Positions 3,221 to 56,192 of a stretch of DNA of 64,000 nucleotides are shown in pieces. This DNA comes from Ereboglobus sp. PH5-10 (GTDB taxonomy: Bacteria; Verrucomicrobiota; Verrucomicrobiia; Opitutales; Opitutaceae). The notes under the pieces were generated by a model. That model searched no databases. It saw nothing but the letters and a program-made list of their open reading frames with translations, and was not told the origin of the DNA. How positions within the stretch are numbered: position 1 is the first letter of the stretch; each line of letters begins with the position of its first letter. The translations under genes and the position numbers were made by a program. The stretch covers positions 62,001-126,000 of the forward strand of contig NZ_JAQFIP010000007.1 in the NCBI RefSeq assembly GCF_029504735.1. The letters run 5' to 3'.

Positions 3221-3296
3221 ATTAATCCAAGACAAACTGCGCCTTAAAATCTTCAAGTTTTCCGATTTCAGCCCTTCAGCTCTTCAGTCTTTCAGC
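3201..3296. repeat. Imperfect long inverted repeat spanning sufE end
   Basis: The arm at 3201-3221 (the last codons and stop of sufE) pairs with 3276-3296 at about 18 of 21 positions, leaving a loop of about 54 bases. The right arm lies inside an octamer repeat tract. It could fold in the sufE transcript and act as a stabiliser or terminator, but it has no clean T-run. Confidence 0.5.
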
Positions 3297-3300
3297 CCTT
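3269..3300 (+). repeat. Octamer tandem tract (CAGYYYTT x4)
   Basis: Four in-phase 8-mers: CAGCCCTT, CAGCTCTT, CAGTCTTT, CAGCCCTT. They end on the first base of the proposed TTG start of tatD. A nearly identical four-unit tract sits at 35580-35611 inside the signal peptide of an FG-GAP protein. Confidence 0.8.
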
Positions 3301-23293: not shown

Positions 23294-24307
23294 ATGAGCA
23301 CTAATTCCTCCGCCTCCCTCACCCAAACGCCCTTTGCGCCGCCGTCCCTCGATGTCTCCATCGTCATTCCTGTTTACAACGAACAGGGCAACCTGCCGCT
23401 CTTGTTTCAGCGGCTTTATCCCGTGCTCGACGCGCTTGGGCGCAGCTACGAAGTCGTTTTCACCAACGACGGCAGCGTGGATGCGTCCATCGAGCTGCTC
23501 ACCGAGCAGTTCAACGCGCGTCCCGATGTCACGCGCGTGATCGACTTCAACGGCAACTACGGCCAGCACATGGCGATCATGGCGGCGTTCGAGCGCGTGC
23601 GCGGCAACGTGGTCGTCACGCTTGATGCCGACCTGCAAAACCCGCCCGAGGAAATCCCGAAGCTTTTGGAGAAAACCGACGCCGGCTACGATTGTGTCGG
23701 CGGCGTGCGCCAGAACCGGCAGGACAGTTTTTTCCGCCGCTACGCCTCGATGTTCGTGAACTTTGTGCGCCGCAGCTCGACGAGCATTGAGATGACCGAT
23801 CAAGGCTGCATGTTGCGCGCCTACAGCCGCGCCGTTGTCGAGGGCATCGTGCGCAGCGGGGCGATCAACACATTCCTCCCCGCGCTCGCCTACACGCTCG
23901 CCAAAAATCCGACCGAGGTGCCCGTCGCGCACGAGGAACGGCACGCCGGCGTGTCGAATTATTCGCTAGGAAAACTCATCCGTTTGAACTTTGACCTCAT
24001 CACGGCGTTCACGACGGTTCCGCTGCAACTGTTCACCATGCTCGCGATGGCGTGTTCGGCAGGCAGCCTCCTGCTTGTCTGCGTGCTCGCCTTCCGCCGC
24101 ATCTTCCTCGGAGCCGAGGCCGAGGGATTGTTCACGCTGTTTGGAATTTTGTTTTTTCTCATCAGCGTCTGCATGGTCGGCATCGGCATCATCGGCGAAT
24201 ACGTGGGAAGAACGTATCAAGTGGTTAGGGGGCGGACGAGGTATCAGGTGAATCGGGTGCTGGAGAATGACCCAACGCATGAAGGAGGAAATTCCAAATT
24301 CCAGTGA
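23294..24307 (+). CDS. arnC: Undecaprenyl-P Ara4FN transferase (GT2)
   Basis: 337 aa. A GT2 domain (VSIVIPVYNEQGNLP, TNDGS, TLDADLQNPPEEIPKLL) is followed by two C-terminal membrane helices at about 235-255 and 265-295, as in ArnC. It should transfer 4-deoxy-4-formamido-L-arabinose from UDP to undecaprenyl phosphate. The last residues (GGNSKFQ) and the stop codon are encoded by the left inverted repeat of an inserted cassette, so the native C-terminal tail has been replaced. Confidence 0.9.
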   Translation: MSTNSSASLTQTPFAPPSLDVSIVIPVYNEQGNLPLLFQRLYPVLDALGRSYEVVFTNDGSVDASIELLTEQFNARPDVTRVIDFNGNYGQHMAIMAAFERVRGNVVVTLDADLQNPPEEIPKLLEKTDAGYDCVGGVRQNRQDSFFRRYASMFVNFVRRSSTSIEMTDQGCMLRAYSRAVVEGIVRSGAINTFLPALAYTLAKNPTEVPVAHEERHAGVSNYSLGKLIRLNFDLITAFTTVPLQLFTMLAMACSAGSLLLVCVLAFRRIFLGAEAEGLFTLFGILFFLISVCMVGIGIIGEYVGRTYQVVRGRTRYQVNRVLENDPTHEGGNSKFQ

Positions 24308-24770
24308 TCAAATTCCAATAAAATTCCAAAATCCAAATACCAAACCCTCTATGCCATATGAGTGAAAACCTTGAAGAACGCACGGAGAAATTTGCGGTTG
24401 CGGTCAGGACATTTGTGAGGGCGTTGCCGCGCACGGTTTCCAACATCGAGGATGTCAAACAACTCGTGAGAGCGTCGGGTTCGGTGGCCGCAAATTATAT
24501 CGAGGCCAATGAATCGCTTGGAGGGAGAGACAAGCTGCTGCATTTCAAAATATGCCGAAAGGAGGCCAAGGAGTCCGGACTTTGGCTGCGGCTTGTTCAT
24601 GTGGGTGACAATAATGCACCACTTGAAAACCAACGACAGATTCTGCGCCAAGAAGCACGCGAACTCACACTGATATTCGCCGCCATCTTGAGAAACATGG
24701 AGTAATCTAATGCATGCATTGATAATTGGAATTTCGTTGGCATCTGATCACTGGAATTTGGAATTTCTCC
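24284..24770. mobile_element. IR-bounded four-helix-bundle cassette in arn operon
   Basis: A 487-bp segment with complementary ends: 24288-24310 equals the reverse complement of 24745-24767 over 23 bases, and the match extends to 24284/24770 with a one-base indel. It encloses one S23-type gene. The left end overlaps the arnC stop, and the right end touches the ATG of arnA-FT. The ends and the inner left side are built of AAATTCC-type heptamers. There is no transposase. It looks like a small non-autonomous insertion that kept the operon readable. Confidence 0.75.
24358..24705 (+). CDS. Four-helix-bundle (S23/IVS) protein
   Basis: 115 aa, all helical. It has the family pattern NIEDVKQLVRASGSVAANYI, EANESLGGRDKLLHFKICRK and a central KEAKESGLWLRL. 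This family was first seen as proteins encoded in intervening sequences of 23S rRNA genes, and is related to the Avd accessory protein of diversity-generating retroelements. Its own function is unknown. It sits inside an inverted-repeat cassette between arnC and arnA. No reverse transcriptase is nearby, so a DGR role is not supported. Confidence 0.88.
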   Translation: MSENLEERTEKFAVAVRTFVRALPRTVSNIEDVKQLVRASGSVAANYIEANESLGGRDKLLHFKICRKEAKESGLWLRLVHVGDNNAPLENQRQILRQEARELTLIFAAILRNME

Positions 24771-24771
24771 C

Positions 24772-25779
24772 ATGAAGCCCCGCATTCTCTTTCTCGGTTA
24801 CAGCGAAGTCGGCTACGAGTGCCTTTCGCTTCTGCTCTCCCGTGGCGACAACGTCGTTGCTCTCATCACACACGAGGACAACCCGGCCGAAAAAATCTGG
24901 TTCAAGACACCCGCTGTTGCCGTTCGCGAGTATAATTCCGCAATCCGCAATCCGCATTCCGCATTCCCCGCCATTCCCATTTTTGCTCCCGCTTCCATCA
25001 ACACGCCCGAATGGTTTGCGCGCATATGCGACGAAATCCGGCCCGACCTGATCCTTTCCGTTTATTATCGCAATATGATCAGCGAGCGCACTCTCGCGCT
25101 TCCGCGACTCGGCGCGTTCAACATGCACGGCTCGCTCCTTCCCAAATACCGCGGACGCGCCCCGATCAACTGGGCCGTTCTCAATGGCGAGCCGCGCATT
25201 GGCATGACGCTTCACAAAATGGTCAGGCGCGCCGATGCGGGCGACATTGTTGACCAGCAGGGCGTTGACATCGCCCCGCGTGACACCGCCGAACAGGCTT
25301 TCCGCAAAGTCCTCCCTTGCGCGCGCGCCATTCTCTCCCGCCAAATCGACGCGCTCCTCGCAGGCACTGCCCAGGCCACGCCGCAGGACGAATCGCAAGC
25401 GACCTATTTCGGCGGACGAAAACCCGGGGACGGACGTATTCAATGGACGGATACAAGCGCGCAAATCTTCAACCTAATCCGCGCCGTCACCGATCCCTAC
25501 CCCGGCGCGTTCACGGATGTCCCACCCGTAGGGGTGTCGCTTGCGACGCCCGGCTTGCGAGGCACGGGCTTCCAGCCCGTGAATCCGAACCCCTCCGCTC
25601 CAGCTCGCCTCATGGTCTGGTGGGCCGAGCAAATCGCCGCGCCGCGCCGCGCCGCGCCCGGCGAAATCCTTTCACTCTCACCGCTCATCGTCGCCACCGC
25701 CGACGGCGCGCTTGAGCTCACCCGCACCGAATGGCGGGGCGCGCCCGCGGCCCCGTTGCAAATCGGACAAATCTTATAA
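24772..25779 (+). CDS. arnA: UDP-Ara4N formyltransferase (ArnA N-domain, stand-alone)
   Basis: 335 aa. A formyltransferase fold with catalytic N117, H119 and D155 (FNMHGSLLPKYRGRAPINW and RADAGDIV), matching N102/H104/D140 of E. coli ArnA. It formylates UDP-Ara4N using N10-formyl-THF. In E. coli this domain is fused to the decarboxylase; here the two are separate genes. Two repeat-derived insertions are visible. Residues 54-66 come from five heptamers (24935-24969), and about 251-278 come from two palindromes (25531-25581), including the peptide GTGFQPV in the C-terminal barrel. Both keep the frame. Confidence 0.9.
   Translation: MKPRILFLGYSEVGYECLSLLLSRGDNVVALITHEDNPAEKIWFKTPAVAVREYNSAIRNPHSAFPAIPIFAPASINTPEWFARICDEIRPDLILSVYYRNMISERTLALPRLGAFNMHGSLLPKYRGRAPINWAVLNGEPRIGMTLHKMVRRADAGDIVDQQGVDIAPRDTAEQAFRKVLPCARAILSRQIDALLAGTAQATPQDESQATYFGGRKPGDGRIQWTDTSAQIFNLIRAVTDPYPGAFTDVPPVGVSLATPGLRGTGFQPVNPNPSAPARLMVWWAEQIAAPRRAAPGEILSLSPLIVATADGALELTRTEWRGAPAAPLQIGQIL
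24935..24969 (+). repeat. Heptamer tract x5 inside arnA-FT
   Basis: In-phase 7-mers ATTCCGC, AATCCGC, AATCCGC, ATTCCGC, ATTCCCC. It is translated as part of YNSAIRNPHSAF. The same consensus, on the opposite strand, occurs at 43516-43543. Confidence 0.85.
25531..25581 (+). repeat. Two REP-like palindromes inside arnA-FT
   Basis: The first is GGGTGTCGC-TT-GCGACGCCC (25532-25551), 9 pairs with one wobble. The second is CACGGGCT-TCC-AGCCCGTG (25563-25581), 8 perfect pairs. Both lie in frame in coding sequence and produce a stretch absent from E. coli ArnA as remembered. Confidence 0.8.
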
Positions 25780-35536: not shown

Positions 35537-37996
35537 ATGATCCCGCGCCTCCGCATCATACTCCTCCTCTTTTCACTTTCAGTCCTTCAGCCCTTCAGTC
35601 CTTCAGCCCTTTCAGCGCAATCTCCGCTCGCGCTCACCGGCCCCGAGGTTGTGAAACTCGACTGGGGCACGCGCTCGCTTCAAGTCGCCGACCTCAACGG
35701 CGACGGCCTGCCCGACATCGCCGTCGCGAACAACGACCGCTCCACCATCGAACTCCTTTACCAGCTCAAGCCCGGCGAGCCGCCTCCCCGCGTTCCCGCC
35801 TCGCTCAGCCCCAATCGCTGGGAGCCCGTTGTCGAGGACGCCCGCTTCCGCAAGGCCACCATCACCACCGGTGTCGTCATGTTCGACCTCTGCGCCGGCG
35901 ACCTCAACGGCGACAAACTTCCCGACCTCGTTCACACCGGCTCGCCCCAGGCGCTCACGCTCCGCCTCCAGCAAGCCGATGGCTCGTGGGTTGAGAAAAA
36001 AATCCCCGAGGCCCCCGCGCCCAACCAGCTTGTCGGTTCGCTCAAAATCGCCGACCTCGACGGCGACGGTCGCGCCGATCTCGCCATGCTCGGCAAAAAC
36101 GAACTCGCCGTTTTTTATCAAACGGACGGCGGCGCCCTCGCCGCGCCCGAGCGCTACACTCTTCCCGACAACAACTGCTACGGCCTCGAGGTTTGCGATG
36201 TCGATGGCGACGGGCTCGCGGACCTTGTTTACCTCTGCAACGGCGCGCGCCAGACAGTTCGCGTCCGCCTCCAAACTCCGTCTCGCCAGTTTGGCCCCGA
36301 GCTTTCCTACGAAATCAAGCACTCCCGCTGCACGCTGCAAATCCTGCAACAAGCCGACGCCAAAACCGGCCGCCACGCCATCTTTGCCTTTGCGCAAGAC
36401 GGCACCGGCCAGCTGGAGGAATTCACCCTCAAGCCTGGCGACGCCTCCTCCGGGACCGTCGGGTTCCAGCCGGGCGCCACGCCGCTTCCTTCCCTCAATC
36501 CCCGCATCTTCAGCCCCCGTCCCGGCGCAAAAACCCCCGCCGCCTACGCCATCGGCAATTTCACCGCCGAGCCCAAACCCCGCGCCTCGCTTCCCCAAAA
36601 AACATCCTCGCGTTTTTCCGGCCCCGACATCGTCGTTTCCGATCCCGACGCCGCGCAAATTTATCTCTATGCGCGCCAGCCCGACGGCGGTTTCACCACG
36701 GCAAAAAAATCACCCGTTTTTTCCGACGCGCGCGCCCTCGCCGCGGGCGATTGGTATGACGAAGGCCGCGACGCGCTCTTCATCGGCAGTCCCAAGGAAC
36801 AGGCCGTCGGCGTTTCCCGCCACATTGACGGACGCTTCGAGTATCCCAAGCCGCTTCCCGTTACCGGGCGCCCCCTCGACGTTGCCTACGGTGATTTCGA
36901 CGGTCTTGGGCAAAAACTTCTGGCCGTTCTTCTTGAGAACAAAGGCAAGCGTTCCATCGAACTCTGGTCGCGCGACGGCGACACAGCCAAACTCGAGCAC
37001 ACCATCCCGATCACCAACCTCAAGACCGACCCGCGCGCGCTCCGCCTCCTCGACGCCAACCAGGACGGCAAGCTCGACATCGCCGTATTCACTCCGCTCG
37101 ACGCCATGCGCCTCTACGTGCAGGGAGACGGCCTCGAATTCACCGAGGCCAGCGCCGACTCCGGGTTCCGCCGCAGCCTTGTGGACAAACTCGAATCCTC
37201 CGCGCTCACGCTTGGCGATATCGACGGCGACGGCAAACACGAGCTAGTCACCGCTCATTCCGGGTTTGCCCGCGCACTCCGGCTCGACGCCTCCGGCGGC
37301 CTTCAAGTTATCGAGCAATTCAATGCCCGCGATCCCAACACCGAGGTCGCCGCAGTCCTTGCCATTCCCGACGCGCCCTCGCCCGTCACCGCCTCCGACT
37401 GGCAAAAACCCGGCCTTGGCGCGACGGTGTCCCAATCCAAAACCCAGGGGCCAAAACCCAGGATCACAGTGGTTCTCTACGATCGCAAATCCGAGCAATT
37501 CCAAATCCTGCGTCCCGACGGCGACGGGTTGTATCAAATAGTGGATACGATCCCCGCCGGAAAAATCGAGGTCACGGGGGCCGAGGTTCTTCCCTCCACC
37601 AACGAGGCGTTCATTTTCGGGCGCGACCGCTTCTGGTGGCTCCCGCTGGGACGGCGCGACTTCGCCGCCTCCACGCTTTCCACGCACACCACCGACCTTC
37701 CCGGCATCAGTTATGCCGACATCATCGCCGGCGATCTCGTTGGCGACGGCCGGCCCGAAATCATTTGCGTTGATCCCGCGAAAAACCTTCTCGAAATCCT
37801 GCGCCGCGACGCCGGCGGCATGCGCTGGGACAGCGTCATGCACTTCAAGGTTTTCGAAATCGACCAGCACTATCAGGGCCGTCGCGGCGGGCAGTTAGAG
37901 CCGCGCGAAACCGTGATCGCCGACATCACCGGCGACGGCAAAAAATCAATCCTCCTCCTCGTTCACGACCGCCTGCTCATCTATCCGCAAGAGTGA
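35537..37996 (+). CDS. Exported FG-GAP/VCBS repeat protein
   Basis: 819 aa. A signal peptide is followed by a beta-propeller-type protein with at least eight Ca-binding-like FG-GAP motifs: DLNGDGLPDIAV, DLNGDKLPDLV, DLDGDGRADLAM, DVDGDGLADLVY, DANQDGKLDIAV, DIDGDGKHELVT, DLVGDGRPEIIC, DITGDGKKSILL. Such proteins are extracellular or periplasmic binding scaffolds. The hydrophobic core of the signal peptide (SVLQPFSPSALSA) is encoded by an octamer repeat tract. It is the last gene of the protease/paralogue cluster. Confidence 0.88.
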   Translation: MIPRLRIILLLFSLSVLQPFSPSALSAQSPLALTGPEVVKLDWGTRSLQVADLNGDGLPDIAVANNDRSTIELLYQLKPGEPPPRVPASLSPNRWEPVVEDARFRKATITTGVVMFDLCAGDLNGDKLPDLVHTGSPQALTLRLQQADGSWVEKKIPEAPAPNQLVGSLKIADLDGDGRADLAMLGKNELAVFYQTDGGALAAPERYTLPDNNCYGLEVCDVDGDGLADLVYLCNGARQTVRVRLQTPSRQFGPELSYEIKHSRCTLQILQQADAKTGRHAIFAFAQDGTGQLEEFTLKPGDASSGTVGFQPGATPLPSLNPRIFSPRPGAKTPAAYAIGNFTAEPKPRASLPQKTSSRFSGPDIVVSDPDAAQIYLYARQPDGGFTTAKKSPVFSDARALAAGDWYDEGRDALFIGSPKEQAVGVSRHIDGRFEYPKPLPVTGRPLDVAYGDFDGLGQKLLAVLLENKGKRSIELWSRDGDTAKLEHTIPITNLKTDPRALRLLDANQDGKLDIAVFTPLDAMRLYVQGDGLEFTEASADSGFRRSLVDKLESSALTLGDIDGDGKHELVTAHSGFARALRLDASGGLQVIEQFNARDPNTEVAAVLAIPDAPSPVTASDWQKPGLGATVSQSKTQGPKPRITVVLYDRKSEQFQILRPDGDGLYQIVDTIPAGKIEVTGAEVLPSTNEAFIFGRDRFWWLPLGRRDFAASTLSTHTTDLPGISYADIIAGDLVGDGRPEIICVDPAKNLLEILRRDAGGMRWDSVMHFKVFEIDQHYQGRRGGQLEPRETVIADITGDGKKSILLLVHDRLLIYPQE
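35580..35611 (+). repeat. Octamer tract x4 in a signal-peptide coding region
   Basis: In-phase 8-mers CAGTCCTT, CAGCCCTT, CAGTCCTT, CAGCCCTT. The unit is the same as in the intergenic tract at 3269-3300. Here it is translated as the hydrophobic core of the FG-GAP protein signal peptide. Confidence 0.85.
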
Positions 37997-43510: not shown

Positions 43511-43515
43511 TGGAA

Positions 43516-43543
43516 ATGCGGAGTTCGGAGTGCGGAATGCGGA
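43516..43543 (+). repeat. Heptamer tract x4 in the mla operon
   Basis: In-phase 7-mers ATGCGGA, GTTCGGA, GTGCGGA, ATGCGGA, followed by ATTTCGGA. It lies in the 48-bp gap between the WPLF gene and mlaE. It has the same consensus, on the opposite strand, as the tract within arnA at 24935. Confidence 0.8.
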
Positions 43544-43558
43544 ATTTCGGAGACGGGG

Positions 43559-51674: not shown

Positions 51675-54600
51675 TCACACAACGGTCGCAGCGGTCTGCT
51701 CCACTTGGTTTCTGGCGTTTTGGAGCATGAAGTGGAGGCGGTTCATCATGTTGGCCTCGCTGGCGCCGCTGTCCAGGTCGAGGAAGAGGAGGCTCATGTC
51801 GGGATAGAGGTCGCGGATTCGTTTTTCTATGCCTTTTGACACGAGGTGGTTCGCTATGCAGCCGAAGGGTTGCAGGCTCACGGCGTTCATCACGCCGCGC
51901 TCGGCGAAGCCCGCAAGCTCCGCGGGGATCAGCCAGCCTTCGCCGTATTGCGAGGCGATGTTGAGCACGCGCGATGCCGACTTGGCCTGCTCGTAGGGGT
52001 TGTGCGAGGGGTGGAAATACGCGAAGGACGAGGCGGCGCGATCGAACTTTTTCTCGACGCGGCGGATGAGCGCGAAGGCCGCCGTGTCCAAAAACGGGAT
52101 GCGCGGCTTGTGCTTGAGGTGCTGCTCGATGTTGGTGCGGTGATTCGGGAATTCCTGGAGGAAGAACGTGGCGACGGAGGGCACCACCGCCTCGGCGCCC
52201 TGGTCGATGAGCCATTGGACGACGTTTTTGTTTCCTATGGAATTATACTTTACGTAAATCTCGCCGACGATGCCGATGCGGGGGACGCGGCGGTCGTGGT
52301 CGCAGATGGCGTTGAAGTCGGCTGCCGCCTCGGCGAGGAGGCGGTAGAGCGCCTTGGTGTCGCGCACCGCCACGCGGGCGATGGCAGCCTGGATGTATTC
52401 GTCGCGAAGACGCGCGGCGGAGCCGGGTTCGCGTTCGCGGGGCACGGAGGCGTAATACATCTGCGAGATGCGGTCGGCGTAGAAGACCGAGCCAATGATT
52501 TCGCTAAGGTTGCCGAGGAGCTTGAGTTTGAAACCGGGCTGGGTGTTCGAGACCGCGCCGCTCGATGTGCCGAGCGAGACGACGGGGATGTTGCCGTGAC
52601 CGGTGGCGATCATCGCTTTTTTGATGAGGGCGATGTAGTTTGACGCGCGGCATTGTCCGCCGGTCTGGCTAATGCCGATGGCGATTTCGTCGGGTTTGTA
52701 TTTGCCGCTGTTGAGCGCGCGGACGATGTCGCCGACGACGAGCGTGGCCGGGTAGCAGACTTCGTTGTTGGCGTATTTGAGGCCGAAGTCGATCGAGGCG
52801 GCGTCGCTCGGCGGCATGACTTCGCATTTGTATCCCATGAGCCCGAGGAGCATCGGGATGAAGGGCGAATAGACTTCCGAGAAAAACGGCAGGAGGATCG
52901 TGCGATGCCGGTCGGCCTCGGTGAAGATGGGCGTGGTGAGGGGTTGGGTGGATTGGGTGGCATGGGCGACCCGCCCATGTGGATTGGGCGCGAGGGAGAG
53001 TTTGCGCGCGGTGGCGGGGGAGGCGGGGAGTTTTTCCCAGCGGTTGGGATTGGCGGGGGGGGACATGGGCGAGTCGCCCATGCCACTCGATCCGCGGTAG
53101 GCGAGGCTTTCGACGAGGGAGCGGATGCGCAGGCGCAGGGAGCCGAGGTTGCTGATGTCGTCGATTTTTAGAATGGTGTGGCTCTTGCCGTTGCGGCGGA
53201 GGATGTCACCCGCCTCGTCGATGATGAACGCGTCGGGGCCGCAGCCGAACGAGGTGAGTTGCACGAAGTGCACGTTCGAGGGCGCCTCGGCAACCCAGCG
53301 AGCGGATTTGAGGATGCGGTTGGTGTAGGCCCATTGGCGGACACTGCCGGGGCCGCCGGCGTCGGTGTCGTCGTCGAGGCGCACGAGGTCTTCCGAAATC
53401 ACATCGACGCCGAAGCCGGCGATCATGTCGGCGACTTTGTGCTGGATGAGCGGGTCGGCGTGGTAGGGGCGTCCGGCGAGGAGGATGGTGACGCGGTTTT
53501 CGGCGGCGGCGCGCGCGGCGATGGCGCGGGCTTTTTCGGCGAGGGTGCGGAAGTGCTCGGTTTGCGCGGCGAGCGCGGCAGCGAAGGCGCGCTCGAAGGC
53601 GCGCGGGGCGACGCCGAGCGTTTTGGTCATGTAGTCGCGGCAGGCGCGTTCGAGGAGTTTGCGGTCGCGGAAGCTGAGCGTGGGCGCGTCGAGCGGGATG
53701 CCGTGCTTGCCCTCGGGGTTGATGGCGCTGCGGATGACGTCGGAGTAGCCGGTGACGATGGGGCAGTTGTAGGTGTTGACGGCGTTTTTGTCCTCCTGCT
53801 CCTCGTAAACGACGAAGGGCATGAGGATGCGGTCAACTTTGCGCGCGATGAGGTCGTAGATGTGCCCGTGGACGAGTTTCGCGGGGAAACAAATGTTGTC
53901 CGACATGACGGTGTGCACGCCTTTGCCGTAGAGCTCGAAGGTCGAGCGCGAGGAGAGCGTGACCTTCATTCCGGCGTGCGTGAGGAGCGCGTGCCAGAAG
54001 GGGTAGTTTTCGTAATAATTGAGCGCGCGCGGGATGCCGATGGTGATGGGATTTTCGATTTTCGATTCTCGATTTTCGATTGCTCCGGCTGCGGGTGACG
54101 GCGCGGTTCGTCCGAAGAGTTTGCTGTATTTGAAGGCGTAGATGTTTTCGCCTTTGCGGGTGTCGGCTCCGCGGTTGGTGAAGATTTTTTCGCACTTGTT
54201 GCCCGAGAAAAATGTGTTCGCGTTTGCGAAGGTGTATTTGCGGACAACACATTTGTTTTCACAACCGGGGCAGGTGGTTTCCTCGGTGGTGGAGGTGGCG
54301 GGATGGGCTAAAGAAGAGAGAAGAGTGAAGGGTGAAGGGTGAAAATCCGATCCTTTGGAATTTGGAACTTGGGGTTTGGGATTTGCACGCGAAGCGTGTA
54401 TGGCGGCGCCATACGCGCCCATGAGTTCGGGCATGTCGGCGAAGGCGACGTCGCGGTCGGTGAGGTGCTCGAGCGCGCGGACGACGGCGTGGTTGCGCAT
54501 GGTGCCGCCTTGGACGACGATGTGCGCGCCGAGGTCGTCCACGTTTTTTAATTTGAGAACTTTGTAGAGGCAGTTTTTGACGACGGAGTAGGCAATGCCC

Positions 54601-56192
54601 GCGGCGATGTCGGGCAACGTGGAGCCTTCGCGGAGCGATTGCTTGACCTTCGAGTTCATGAACACCGTGCAGCGCGTGCCGAGGTCGCAGGGATACTCGG
54701 CGGTGCAGGCGGAGGTGGCGAATTGCGCGGCGGTCTGGCCGAGGGTGTTGGCGAAACTTTCAATGAAAGAGCCGCAGCCGGAGGAGCAGGCTTCGTTGAT
54801 GTCGAGGCGGACGATGGAGCCGTTTTCGATGAACGTGGCTTTCATGTCCTGACCGCCGATGTCGAGGATGAAGGTGACTTCGGGGTTGAGTTTGTGCGCG
54901 GCGAGGTAGTGCGCGATGGTTTCGACGAGGCCGCTGTCGAAATTGAACGCGGCCTTGATGAGGTCCTCGCCGTAACCGGTGACGGCGGCGCGGGCGAGGC
55001 GGAGCGCGGGGCGTCCGGCGGCGATGGCGGCGGCGTTGAGCCCGGCGAGGCCCTTGGCGACGACGGCGAGCGGATCGCCGGAGTTTTTTTCGTAGAAGGT
55101 GTGGAGGACGTTTTCGCGCGCGTCGGTGGCGACGATTTTTGTCGTCGTGGAGCCGGAGTCGATGCCGAGGTAGATTTCCCCGTTCTCGGGCAGGTCGGCG
55201 AAGTGTGCGCGCGGGAGCGCGTAGCGTTGCTTTTCGATTTTCCAGGCTTCGTGTTCGGCGGCGCTGTCGAAGAGCACGCGGAGCGGCTGGCCGTTGAGGA
55301 GCGGGCGGCCGGCGCGCGTGGTGTTGGCGAAGCGCGCGAGGAGTTCGTCGATGGTGATTGCGAGGCGCGGGGTGTCGGTCGCGAGCGCGCAACCGAGCGC
55401 GGGGATGAGCGCGGCGGCGTCGGGCACGACGCAATCGTCGTCGGTGAGACCCATGACCTTGAGGCACGCCTTGCGCAGTTCGGGGATGAACGCGAGCGGG
55501 CCGCCGCACAGGAGCGTGAGCGGCGCGATTTCGCGTCCGCGCGCGAGCGAGGTGACGAGTTGCAGCGCGACGGCGTGAAACACGGACGCGGCGATGTCGG
55601 CCTTGGAGACGTTGCGCGCGAGAAGATTTTGAATGTCGGTCTTGGCAAACACGCCGCAGCGCGAGGCGATGGGATGCAGGGCGGTTGAGTTTTTGGCGAG
55701 TTCGTTGAGCTCGGAAACCTCGCAGCCGAGGAGCGTGGCCACCTGGTCGATGAACGCGCCGGTGCCGCCGGCGCAGGAGCCGTTCATGCGGATGTCGGGC
55801 GCGCGGCCGGGCGAGAAGAAAATCATTTTCGCATCCTCGCCGCCGATGTCGACGAGCGTGCGGATGTCGGGGTAACGGCGCTGGGCAACCTCGCCCGCGG
55901 CGACGACCTCCTGGATGAACGGGATGCGGTAGGTTTCCGAGAGTCCCATGCCCGCCGAGCCGGTGACGGTGAGCGAGACAGGGGCGTTGCCGATGCGCGT
56001 GTCGCGCGCCTGCGCGAAAGCCGCGCGCAACGCGGCGGGCACGTCGGCGTTGTGGCGCCGGTAATCGGTGAAGAGGATTTCGCCCGCGGAATCGGTGATG
56101 ACGATTTTAAGCGTGGTCGAGCCGACGTCGAGGCCGGCGAAAAGCGAGGGTGCTGGTTTGTCCGCGGGTGCAACTGTGTTAGCCGTGCTCAT
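51675..56192 (-). CDS. Giant acyl-CoA dehydratase activase (BadF x2, DUF2229, HgdB-like)
   Basis: 1505 aa. Two BadF/BcrA ASKHA ATPase domains: 17-275 with GLDVGSTTLK, Cys140 and Cys179; 340-600 with GIDSGSTTTK, Cys469/473 and Cys508 (likely 4Fe-4S ligands). A CPGCENKC motif (641-648) precedes a DUF2229 region (~715-930). An HgdB-like part (~1085-1500) includes NNEVCYPATLVVGD and GISQTGGQCRASNY. Such activases use ATP to inject electrons into 2-hydroxyacyl-CoA or benzoyl-CoA-type enzymes; the substrate is unknown. In-frame repeats form linkers at ~603-628, 704-714 and 1037-1078. Follows tetR by 34 bp. Confidence 0.88.
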   Translation of the reverse strand: MSTANTVAPADKPAPSLFAGLDVGSTTLKIVITDSAGEILFTDYRRHNADVPAALRAAFAQARDTRIGNAPVSLTVTGSAGMGLSETYRIPFIQEVVAAGEVAQRRYPDIRTLVDIGGEDAKMIFFSPGRAPDIRMNGSCAGGTGAFIDQVATLLGCEVSELNELAKNSTALHPIASRCGVFAKTDIQNLLARNVSKADIAASVFHAVALQLVTSLARGREIAPLTLLCGGPLAFIPELRKACLKVMGLTDDDCVVPDAAALIPALGCALATDTPRLAITIDELLARFANTTRAGRPLLNGQPLRVLFDSAAEHEAWKIEKQRYALPRAHFADLPENGEIYLGIDSGSTTTKIVATDARENVLHTFYEKNSGDPLAVVAKGLAGLNAAAIAAGRPALRLARAAVTGYGEDLIKAAFNFDSGLVETIAHYLAAHKLNPEVTFILDIGGQDMKATFIENGSIVRLDINEACSSGCGSFIESFANTLGQTAAQFATSACTAEYPCDLGTRCTVFMNSKVKQSLREGSTLPDIAAGIAYSVVKNCLYKVLKLKNVDDLGAHIVVQGGTMRNHAVVRALEHLTDRDVAFADMPELMGAYGAAIHASRANPKPQVPNSKGSDFHPSPFTLLSSLAHPATSTTEETTCPGCENKCVVRKYTFANANTFFSGNKCEKIFTNRGADTRKGENIYAFKYSKLFGRTAPSPAAGAIENRESKIENPITIGIPRALNYYENYPFWHALLTHAGMKVTLSSRSTFELYGKGVHTVMSDNICFPAKLVHGHIYDLIARKVDRILMPFVVYEEQEDKNAVNTYNCPIVTGYSDVIRSAINPEGKHGIPLDAPTLSFRDRKLLERACRDYMTKTLGVAPRAFERAFAAALAAQTEHFRTLAEKARAIAARAAAENRVTILLAGRPYHADPLIQHKVADMIAGFGVDVISEDLVRLDDDTDAGGPGSVRQWAYTNRILKSARWVAEAPSNVHFVQLTSFGCGPDAFIIDEAGDILRRNGKSHTILKIDDISNLGSLRLRIRSLVESLAYRGSSGMGDSPMSPPANPNRWEKLPASPATARKLSLAPNPHGRVAHATQSTQPLTTPIFTEADRHRTILLPFFSEVYSPFIPMLLGLMGYKCEVMPPSDAASIDFGLKYANNEVCYPATLVVGDIVRALNSGKYKPDEIAIGISQTGGQCRASNYIALIKKAMIATGHGNIPVVSLGTSSGAVSNTQPGFKLKLLGNLSEIIGSVFYADRISQMYYASVPREREPGSAARLRDEYIQAAIARVAVRDTKALYRLLAEAAADFNAICDHDRRVPRIGIVGEIYVKYNSIGNKNVVQWLIDQGAEAVVPSVATFFLQEFPNHRTNIEQHLKHKPRIPFLDTAAFALIRRVEKKFDRAASSFAYFHPSHNPYEQAKSASRVLNIASQYGEGWLIPAELAGFAERGVMNAVSLQPFGCIANHLVSKGIEKRIRDLYPDMSLLFLDLDSGASEANMMNRLHFMLQNARNQVEQTAATVV
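52961..53082. repeat. Paired REP-like palindromes in the activase gene
   Basis: CATGGGCG-ACC-CGCCCATG (52961-52979) and CATGGGCGA-G-TCGCCCATG (53064-53082). Both lie in frame; on the minus strand they yield peptides such as GMGDSPM and HGRVAHAT in an interdomain linker. Confidence 0.85.
54051..54078. repeat. Heptamer tract x4 in the activase gene
   Basis: In-phase ATTTTCG, ATTTTCG, ATTCTCG, ATTTTCG. Translated on the minus strand as part of IENRESKIENP, just before the DUF2229 region. Confidence 0.85.
54325..54388. repeat. Two adjacent heptamer tracts in the activase gene
   Basis: GTGAAGG, GTGAAGG, GTGAAAA (54325-54345), then TTTGGAA, TTTGGAA, CTTGGGG, TTTGGGA, TTTGCAC (54354-54388). Translated on the minus strand as NPKPQVPNSKGSDFHPSPF, the linker between the second ATPase domain and the Cys motif. 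Confidence 0.85.

Follow-up and report, generated by a model that had tools for sequence, protein, structure and literature searches.

How did a tandem array of 7-bp repeats come to lie in frame inside the gene of an ArnA-type formyltransferase? The array is located in a 64,000-nucleotide stretch of the genome of Ereboglobus sp. PH5-10, referred to here as the window. This genome is called G000 and its three congeners G001, G002 and G003. The features of the window are collected in Table 1.

Table 1 Features of the window that bear on the heptad array and on related repeats
Feature	Positions	Strand	Remarks
Left inverted arm of IVP unit	24277..24329	+	AAATTCC-type heptads; 53 nt, 83% complementary to 24726-24778
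23S_rRNA_IVP / TIGR02436 four-helix-bundle gene	24358..24705	+	between arnC-like and formyltransferase genes
Right inverted arm of IVP unit	24726..24778	-	pairing reaches past formyltransferase start codon 24772
Stand-alone ArnA-FT-type formyltransferase, 335 aa	24772..25779	+	profile matches, AlphaFold model, Z 31.9 to E. coli ArnA-FT 5j63
Peptide NSAIRNPHSAF, codons 55-65	24934..24966	+	belongs to a net insertion of 36 nt (12 aa) compared with family homologues
Heptad array	24935..24969	+	five contiguous units ATTCCGC AATCCGC AATCCGC ATTCCGC ATTCCCC, within formyltransferase ORF
Second in-frame repeat segment, residues ~251-277	25522..25602	+	between Formyl_trans_N and Formyl_trans_C
REP-like palindrome CACGGGCTTCCAGCCCGTG	25563..25581	+	inside second segment
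Degenerate array, same heptad family	43515..43549	-	between two minus-strand ORFs 48 bp apart; overlapped by other mechanical ORFs
REP-like palindrome, HGRVAHATQ in frame	52953..52979	-	activase-like ORF 51675-56192
GAAAATC-type heptads, IENRESKIENP in frame	54048..54080	-	activase-like ORF 51675-56192
TTCACCC-type heptads, FHPSPFTLLSS in frame	54312..54344	-	activase-like ORF 51675-56192
AAATTCC/AAATCCC-type heptads, NPKPQVPNSK in frame	54354..54383	-	activase-like ORF 51675-56192

The array and its host protein

The initial annotation of this DNA described five exact heptamers. Their position and contiguity hold, but the units are not exact copies: there are three variants, two of them present in two copies each. 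TRF assigns the array a period of 7, with 4.4 copies and 95% matches. When up to three mismatches are allowed, the pattern CCGCAWTCCGCAWTCCGC has 7 matches in the window versus a mean of 1.12 in shuffled sequences, and 7 matches were reached in 0 of 100 shuffles. The enrichment of heptads over shuffles is clear in the window, and exact matches are also found in the genome, with a reversed control of 0. The peptide NSAIRNPHSAF is present as annotated. The annotation also held that 35 bases, not being a multiple of three, required flanking changes to restore the frame. Compared with its relatives, the gene carries a net insertion of 36 nt rather than 35, so the frame of the ORF is kept.

The assignment of the gene to the ArnA type is supported by a match to NF005414 (358.9 bits versus a cut-off of 316), and the solved structures closest to it are ArnA (8gjh, E 4.7e-64). 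It is a stand-alone formyltransferase, though: the full-length ArnA model gives 274.3 bits, below its cut-off of 777, and the gene is not fused as in bifunctional ArnA, the dehydrogenase-type protein being a separate ORF downstream. The gene clusters with an arnC-like gene. An AlphaFold2 model built from a 32-sequence alignment (mean pLDDT 87.3) matches E. coli ArnA-FT (5j63) with Z 31.9 and rmsd 1.9 over 290 residues. The model contains a helix at residues 47-57, a loop at 58-69 and a short strand at 70-71, and the block pLDDT values of this region are 88 (residues 51-60) and 83 (61-70). The insert therefore forms a helix-to-strand loop in the model, at a point where the aligned ArnA chains have only a short link, as the annotation had stated for E. 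coli ArnA. We infer that this loop is exposed on the surface and that the insert is near-neutral. Residues N117, H119 and D155, which we take to correspond to the catalytic residues of ArnA, are invariant in the alignment and lie at sequence positions away from the array peptide. A catalytic role of the peptide is improbable, and selection probably acts on it only to prevent loss of frame.

The insert was compared across 102 homologue rows, made up of 22 loci (L002-L023) from 57 related genomes and the best 80 of 355 sequences (one genome per species). Some genomes occur twice among these rows, and seven loci of other formyltransferases (L024-L030) were left out. In 96 of the 102 rows, the protein is exactly 12 aa shorter at the array than the window protein, and a conserved loop of the formyltransferase family was rejected on this basis. 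Three rows differ by -9, -11 and -13 aa, and two are equal in length, both from G002, an Ereboglobus congener found twice. The remaining row (L003, from G001) is frameshifted and could not be scored by script. The insert is absent from the family homologues examined. Conservation of the peptide in ArnA homologues of distant bacteria would have refuted the annotation's reading; the peptide is not conserved in the homologues examined. In the DNA alignment, the net 36-nt insertion is found in G000 and G002, and G001 has only 6 extra nt relative to the family. The array is absent from G001, the closer congener, and among the rows compared an insert of the same length is found only in G002. No close orthologue of the gene was found in G003, a 65% complete draft. 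The G001 gene (L003, 1290-2235) also has a 1-nt frameshift (AACACCCCGAATGG) past the array position, which may be a sequencing error or decay; this genome is a single contig.

Three properties may explain why the array is tolerated: the loop is permissive, the three frames of a period-7 repeat all translate into one seven-residue cycle, and all six frames of ATTCCGC (read as IPHSAFR / AECGMRN) and of AATCCGC (NPQSAIR / ADCGLRI) are free of stops. Such an insert need only preserve the frame through its length modulo three, as the net insertion of 36 nt does. We note that stop-free heptads are not special and should be regarded as permissive only, since 50% of heptamers lack stops on both strands and 69% lack them on one strand.

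Heptad arrays and two-armed elements in other genes

Exact matches to the array pattern were found in all four genus genomes (8 in G000, 13 in G001, 22 in G002 and 5 in G003), with 0 in the reversed controls. Counted by hand, there are 31 array clusters (6, 8, 13 and 4, in the same order), and 22 of them lie inside ORFs of known families (5/6, 5/8, 10/13 and 2/4); one representative of each gene was searched against Pfam, and the other members were placed by orthology. In two of these 22 (L057 and L120), the array lies beyond or between the recognised domains of the ORF. A single open frame runs through 21 of the 22 ORF-borne clusters, and 9 of the 31 were not placed in genes. The annotation had spoken of a repeat of intergenic type that became protein sequence; the second half of this statement stands, but the term intergenic has to be revised for this genus, where 22 of 31 clusters are in known-family ORFs. 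The array-bearing ORFs include gcvP, purL (two sites), mnmG, an RluA-like pseudouridine synthase, nadE, rsmA, glnS, aroE, uvrA and valS, together with a CrtI-like oxidase, an ATPase and an FAD oxidoreductase. In the RluA-like protein, the domain match runs across the array. Empty sites were found for the RluA-like gene (G002, G005 and G011), for GlnRS (G005 and G011) and for the formyltransferase (in the family), with flanks too diverged to define a target-site duplication.

Other repeats occupy some of the same linkers. The GlnRS linker of G000 is filled by AAATTCC heptads and other species carry other repeats there, while the nadE linker of G003 is filled by a different tandem repeat. In G002, nadE (L124/L134/L136, C63) is split into two frames at the array. 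This split may be a one-unit slip or an assembly collapse, and the site is possibly phase-variable. The G001 GlnRS match contains 2 TGA. The same heptads are also found in the gap between two ribosomal-operon genes of G000 (L040) and G001 (L047), presumably rpmC and rpsQ, judging from the translation.

Across the wider sample, heptads occur in 16 of 61 genomes. For the other genera, 20 stretches and L259 were read, and Pfam was run on 10 chosen ORFs. In-frame arrays were found in UvrA (L259 and L264, with three arrays in one genome) and TilS (L276), and an ORF of the tRNA_U5-methyltransferase type (L275), a weaker match, has an in-frame array before the matched domain. The arrays of the DnaJ (L271) and UbiE (L268) ORFs are outside the domains, the result for L260 was ambiguous, and three of the 10 ORFs had no family by Pfam.

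Some heptads belong to two-armed copies of ~110 nt, in which a left arm [AATGCGG]n is followed by a ~45-nt internal stretch ending in CGCTTGCGTCCGM and by a right arm [ATTCCGC]n. The core CGCTTGCGTCCGM is not heptad-periodic and is common to the two-armed copies. Its pattern is present in 4/4 genus genomes and in only 4 of the 61 genomes searched, three of them of this genus. A family-wide two-armed element was therefore rejected, as the core is nearly confined to the genus although the heptads are not. These dispersed, multiple short copies without a transposase gene resemble MITEs, and terminal inverted repeats are present in the two-armed copies, while the formyltransferase site has one arm and no core. 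The array there corresponds to a solo right arm.

Thirteen copies of the element were compared, 11 coding and two apparently outside genes. The core search was the source of the murC copies, of the CrtI-like and valS copies of G002 and of one uvrA copy, all of which are outside the 31 clusters. The 11 coding copies are distributed over seven genes (two each in murC, the CrtI-like gene, nadE and valS, and one each in glnS, uvrA and the RluA-like gene), and all 11 use one strand and one frame, in which the core is read as LAS in ten copies and as LGS in the RluA copy. The two copies apparently outside genes are also open over the element in this frame. However, another forward frame is open over the shown stretch in glnS, valS (G002) and the CrtI-like gene (G003), so the shared frame is not fully accounted for by stops. 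The uvrA copy L096 is without the left heptad arm, and nadE of G002 departs from the gene frame after the core. An excess of RNA folding was detected for the RluA copy (z -6.30) and the murC copy (z -4.51). The GlnRS copy showed no such excess (z 0.58) over a folded stretch that missed part of the left arm.

IVP genes and the origin of the array

Upstream of the formyltransferase, 66 bp from its start, ends an IVP gene with a TIGR02436 match of 53.6 bits (cut-off 24) and a Pfam match of 31.8 bits, just under the cut-off of 33.8. This ORF is bounded by inverted repeats, like that of a 23S rRNA intervening sequence (IVS), and is flanked by two protein genes, not by 23S rRNA sequence. With the 99th percentile of 300 randomly chosen window positions as threshold, inverted repeats exceeding it were found at 25 of 30 IVP loci in the genus and 22 of 28 in the family. 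Among the five genus loci not above this threshold, L067 is at it (16), and L086, L087, L089 and L090 match only weakly, with scores close to the curated cut-off or under it. Six of the 28 family loci were not above it. The period test used 25 of the 30 genus loci (without the short locus L072 and the four weak matches) and 27 of the 28 family loci (without L255). Lag 7 outperforms the other lags in the range 4-12 upstream of the IVP genes in 21/25 genus and 24/27 family loci, and downstream in 16/25 and 21/27, versus 11/200 controls. The controls are random window positions, mostly coding and unmatched in base composition, so the other lags in the same flanks are the better control for period 7. 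The orthologous IVP loci of G000 and G001 were counted separately and are not independent.

The heptad of the IVP arms differs from locus to locus, and at the arnC-formyltransferase locus it differs between species. When the arm limits are placed manually, left and right arm agree at 88% within G000 and 92% within G002, versus 71% and 80% for the same arm between species. As the arms match better within a genome than across species, the two arms of IVP units seem to change together, judging from these alignments. The IVP gene L073 of G001 has AATGCGG/ATTCCGC arms, and a gene-less two-armed copy lies ~0.85 kb away, which makes IVP units a natural candidate source of the arms. To our knowledge, IVP is not a known transposase. 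The IVP gene of the window is 99% identical between G000 and G001 (344/347) versus 92.8% for the neighbouring formyltransferase, which may reflect recent spread or unusual conservation.

We lean towards reading the formyltransferase array as repeat DNA that turned into protein: a solo arm from an element with heptad arms that is dispersed in the genus, acquired in frame in or near the genus ancestor and lost in G001. The parent of the solo arm would be the MITE-like element described above, from which one arm would have entered the surface loop in frame. We infer that it arrived by element movement or ectopic copying rather than by local slippage, that it derives from the two-armed element, and that G001 lost it again, which would have left about two extra residues. 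The IVP genes, with their family-wide period-7 inverted arms, would be a candidate source or partner of the arms. Slippage, in which the array grew from a native ATTCC-like seed and its likeness to other loci reflects a general heptad bias, is rather unlikely in our view. Tandem arrays are prone to slippage, the codons just downstream of the array read CATTCCC, and the loss of frame at the array in G002 nadE is what a one-unit change could give. However, slippage does not readily account for AATCCGC and ATTCCGC turning up together, in varying order, at scattered loci in four genomes, or for the two-armed elements sharing a core without a heptad period.

Over the initial 740 nt of the gene, with the array excluded, G000 is 92.8% identical to G001 and 83.3% to G002. 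In contrast, the array is identical between G000 and G002 at 34/35 nt (97.1%), the third positions are identical at 12/12 within the array versus 143/234 outside it, and no 32-nt stretch other than the array is fully identical between the two genes (2 overlapping windows of 709). A single difference in 35 nt runs counter to one old insertion followed by neutral drift, though the closer G001 is without the array. Because the array is so unusually unchanged, recent copying or conversion at the DNA level may have occurred. These values favour separate recent events in G000 and in G002, in which a hot-spot linker acquired the array in parallel or through gene conversion, as does the presence of different repeats in the same linkers of different species (GlnRS, nadE and the activase described below). 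We nevertheless find this history doubtful: the 6 extra nt that G001 keeps relative to the family look like a deletion scar, and the same position and unit order are easier to obtain by descent. On the sequences compared, insertion in the genus ancestor followed by loss in G001 with a 6-nt scar would be the simplest history. The invariance of the 32-nt stretch and of its third positions could also be taken to mean that the peptide is kept by selection, for instance for oligomer contacts or as a DNA or RNA feature. This is quite improbable, as the peptide is absent from the closer G001 and from the other homologues examined, the conservation of silent sites speaks for copying of the DNA rather than for selection on the protein, and the RNA of the array shows no structure excess over shuffles (z 0.82).

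A broader proposal, which extends the solo-arm reading, is held here only tentatively. IVP genes with inverted period-7 arms might be a mobile-element family whose arms co-evolve and whose heptad changes by lineage, with gene-less derivatives and solo arms repeatedly colonising permissive linkers of essential proteins in one preferred frame. The heptad would then be a frame-tolerant, protein-invading repeat.

Several known repeats are similar in part. Rickettsia palindromic elements (RPE) are described in a review as dispersed repeats of ~105-146 bp with terminal inverted repeats, inserted in frame in conserved protein genes and apparently tolerated; small repeats that invade housekeeping genes in frame are reported for Rickettsia and for some enterobacterial and neisserial repeats (PMC2229807). 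As with RPE, arrays here are in frame in conserved genes with empty orthologues (22/31 clusters, 21 in one frame, and three genes with empty sites). Unlike in that description, the arms here are arrays of a 7-bp unit, solo arms are common and the host is Opitutaceae; the two are likened by description, with their cores unaligned. The GGGAATC heptads of Xanthomonas and GGGGA(T/C)T heptads of Nostoc often form inverted pairs at close range, with 70 and 75 cases counted in two genomes of Xanthomonas, and are reported as under-represented in coding regions and G-quadruplex forming, in contrast to the mostly ORF-borne clusters of the Ereboglobus genus (PMC4692102). The TAACTGA direct repeats of Beggiatoaceae are dispersed heptamer arrays with few inside ORFs, all but 25 sets being wholly intergenic, and the available portion of that report describes neither an inverted-arm element nor an IVP link, unlike the Ereboglobus arrays (PMC4679880). 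The Coxiella 23S rRNA IVS has a four-helix-bundle S23p/IVP ORF between inverted repeats (PMC4990558), while the Ereboglobus unit is flanked by protein genes and has period-7 arrays as arms, which vary by locus. Borg tandem repeats also produce amino-acid repeats when located in ORFs, but they are perfect and belong to archaeal extrachromosomal elements, while the arrays here are short, imperfect, of period 7 and in bacterial genomes (PMC9879509).

Heptad-armed IVP units or in-frame heptads in Opitutaceae did not appear, by title or start of abstract, among the literature matches listed, in a search that mostly excludes subscription journals; nor did the combination of heptad arms, in-frame copies in many housekeeping genes and period-7 inverted arms of IVP genes. 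The heptad arms and the IVP link look new, while in-frame repeat invasion itself is known from Rickettsia. This further setting adds arms made of heptads, empty orthologues for several sites and a connection to IVP genes throughout the family. It allows tests of how a non-coding repeat turns into protein, of whether a frame-neutral period is of benefit and of whether IVP genes are parts of mobile elements. For annotators, peptides such as NPHSAFR, PLASD-HSAF and ENRKSKI can be repeat-derived.

Other repeats in the formyltransferase and the window

The linker between the two formyltransferase domains contains a second in-frame repeat segment, with low pLDDT (block means 60, 45 and 70) and an RNA fold of z -2.84 over 25530-25600. 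In the place of the palindrome CACGGGCTTCCAGCCCGTG, a different palindrome is found in G002 and a palindrome-like sequence in G001. The palindrome CACGGGC-N5-GCCCGTG has four copies in a 3.2-kb Y1_Tnp locus of G002 (L113, C10; positions 1368, 1440, 2076 and 2148), which is a likely REP/RAYT system. As this palindrome family occurs four times around the Y1_Tnp gene, and in frame in the formyltransferase linker too, the second insert most likely belongs to a REP/RAYT-type system. This likeness covers the second insert and is a matter separate from the heptad array, as the palindromes show no heptads. A RAYT as the mover of the heptads was rejected, with two adjacent AWTCCGC heptads in 0 of the 12 Y1_Tnp loci examined (of 62 matches). 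The draft G003 has 42 Y1_Tnp matches versus 6-8 in its three congeners.

Elsewhere in the window, three heptad stretches and a REP-like palindrome are read in frame in a CoA-enzyme activase-like ORF of 1505 aa (51675-56192, minus strand; BcrAD_BadFG and DUF2229). In place of the linker IENRESKIENP of G000, G001 and G003 have different heptad-like peptides and G002 has none, the relatives having been compared as peptides only. Two period-8 arrays of the unit TTCAGCCC are also present in the window, far apart, at 3267-3300 and 35578-35616.
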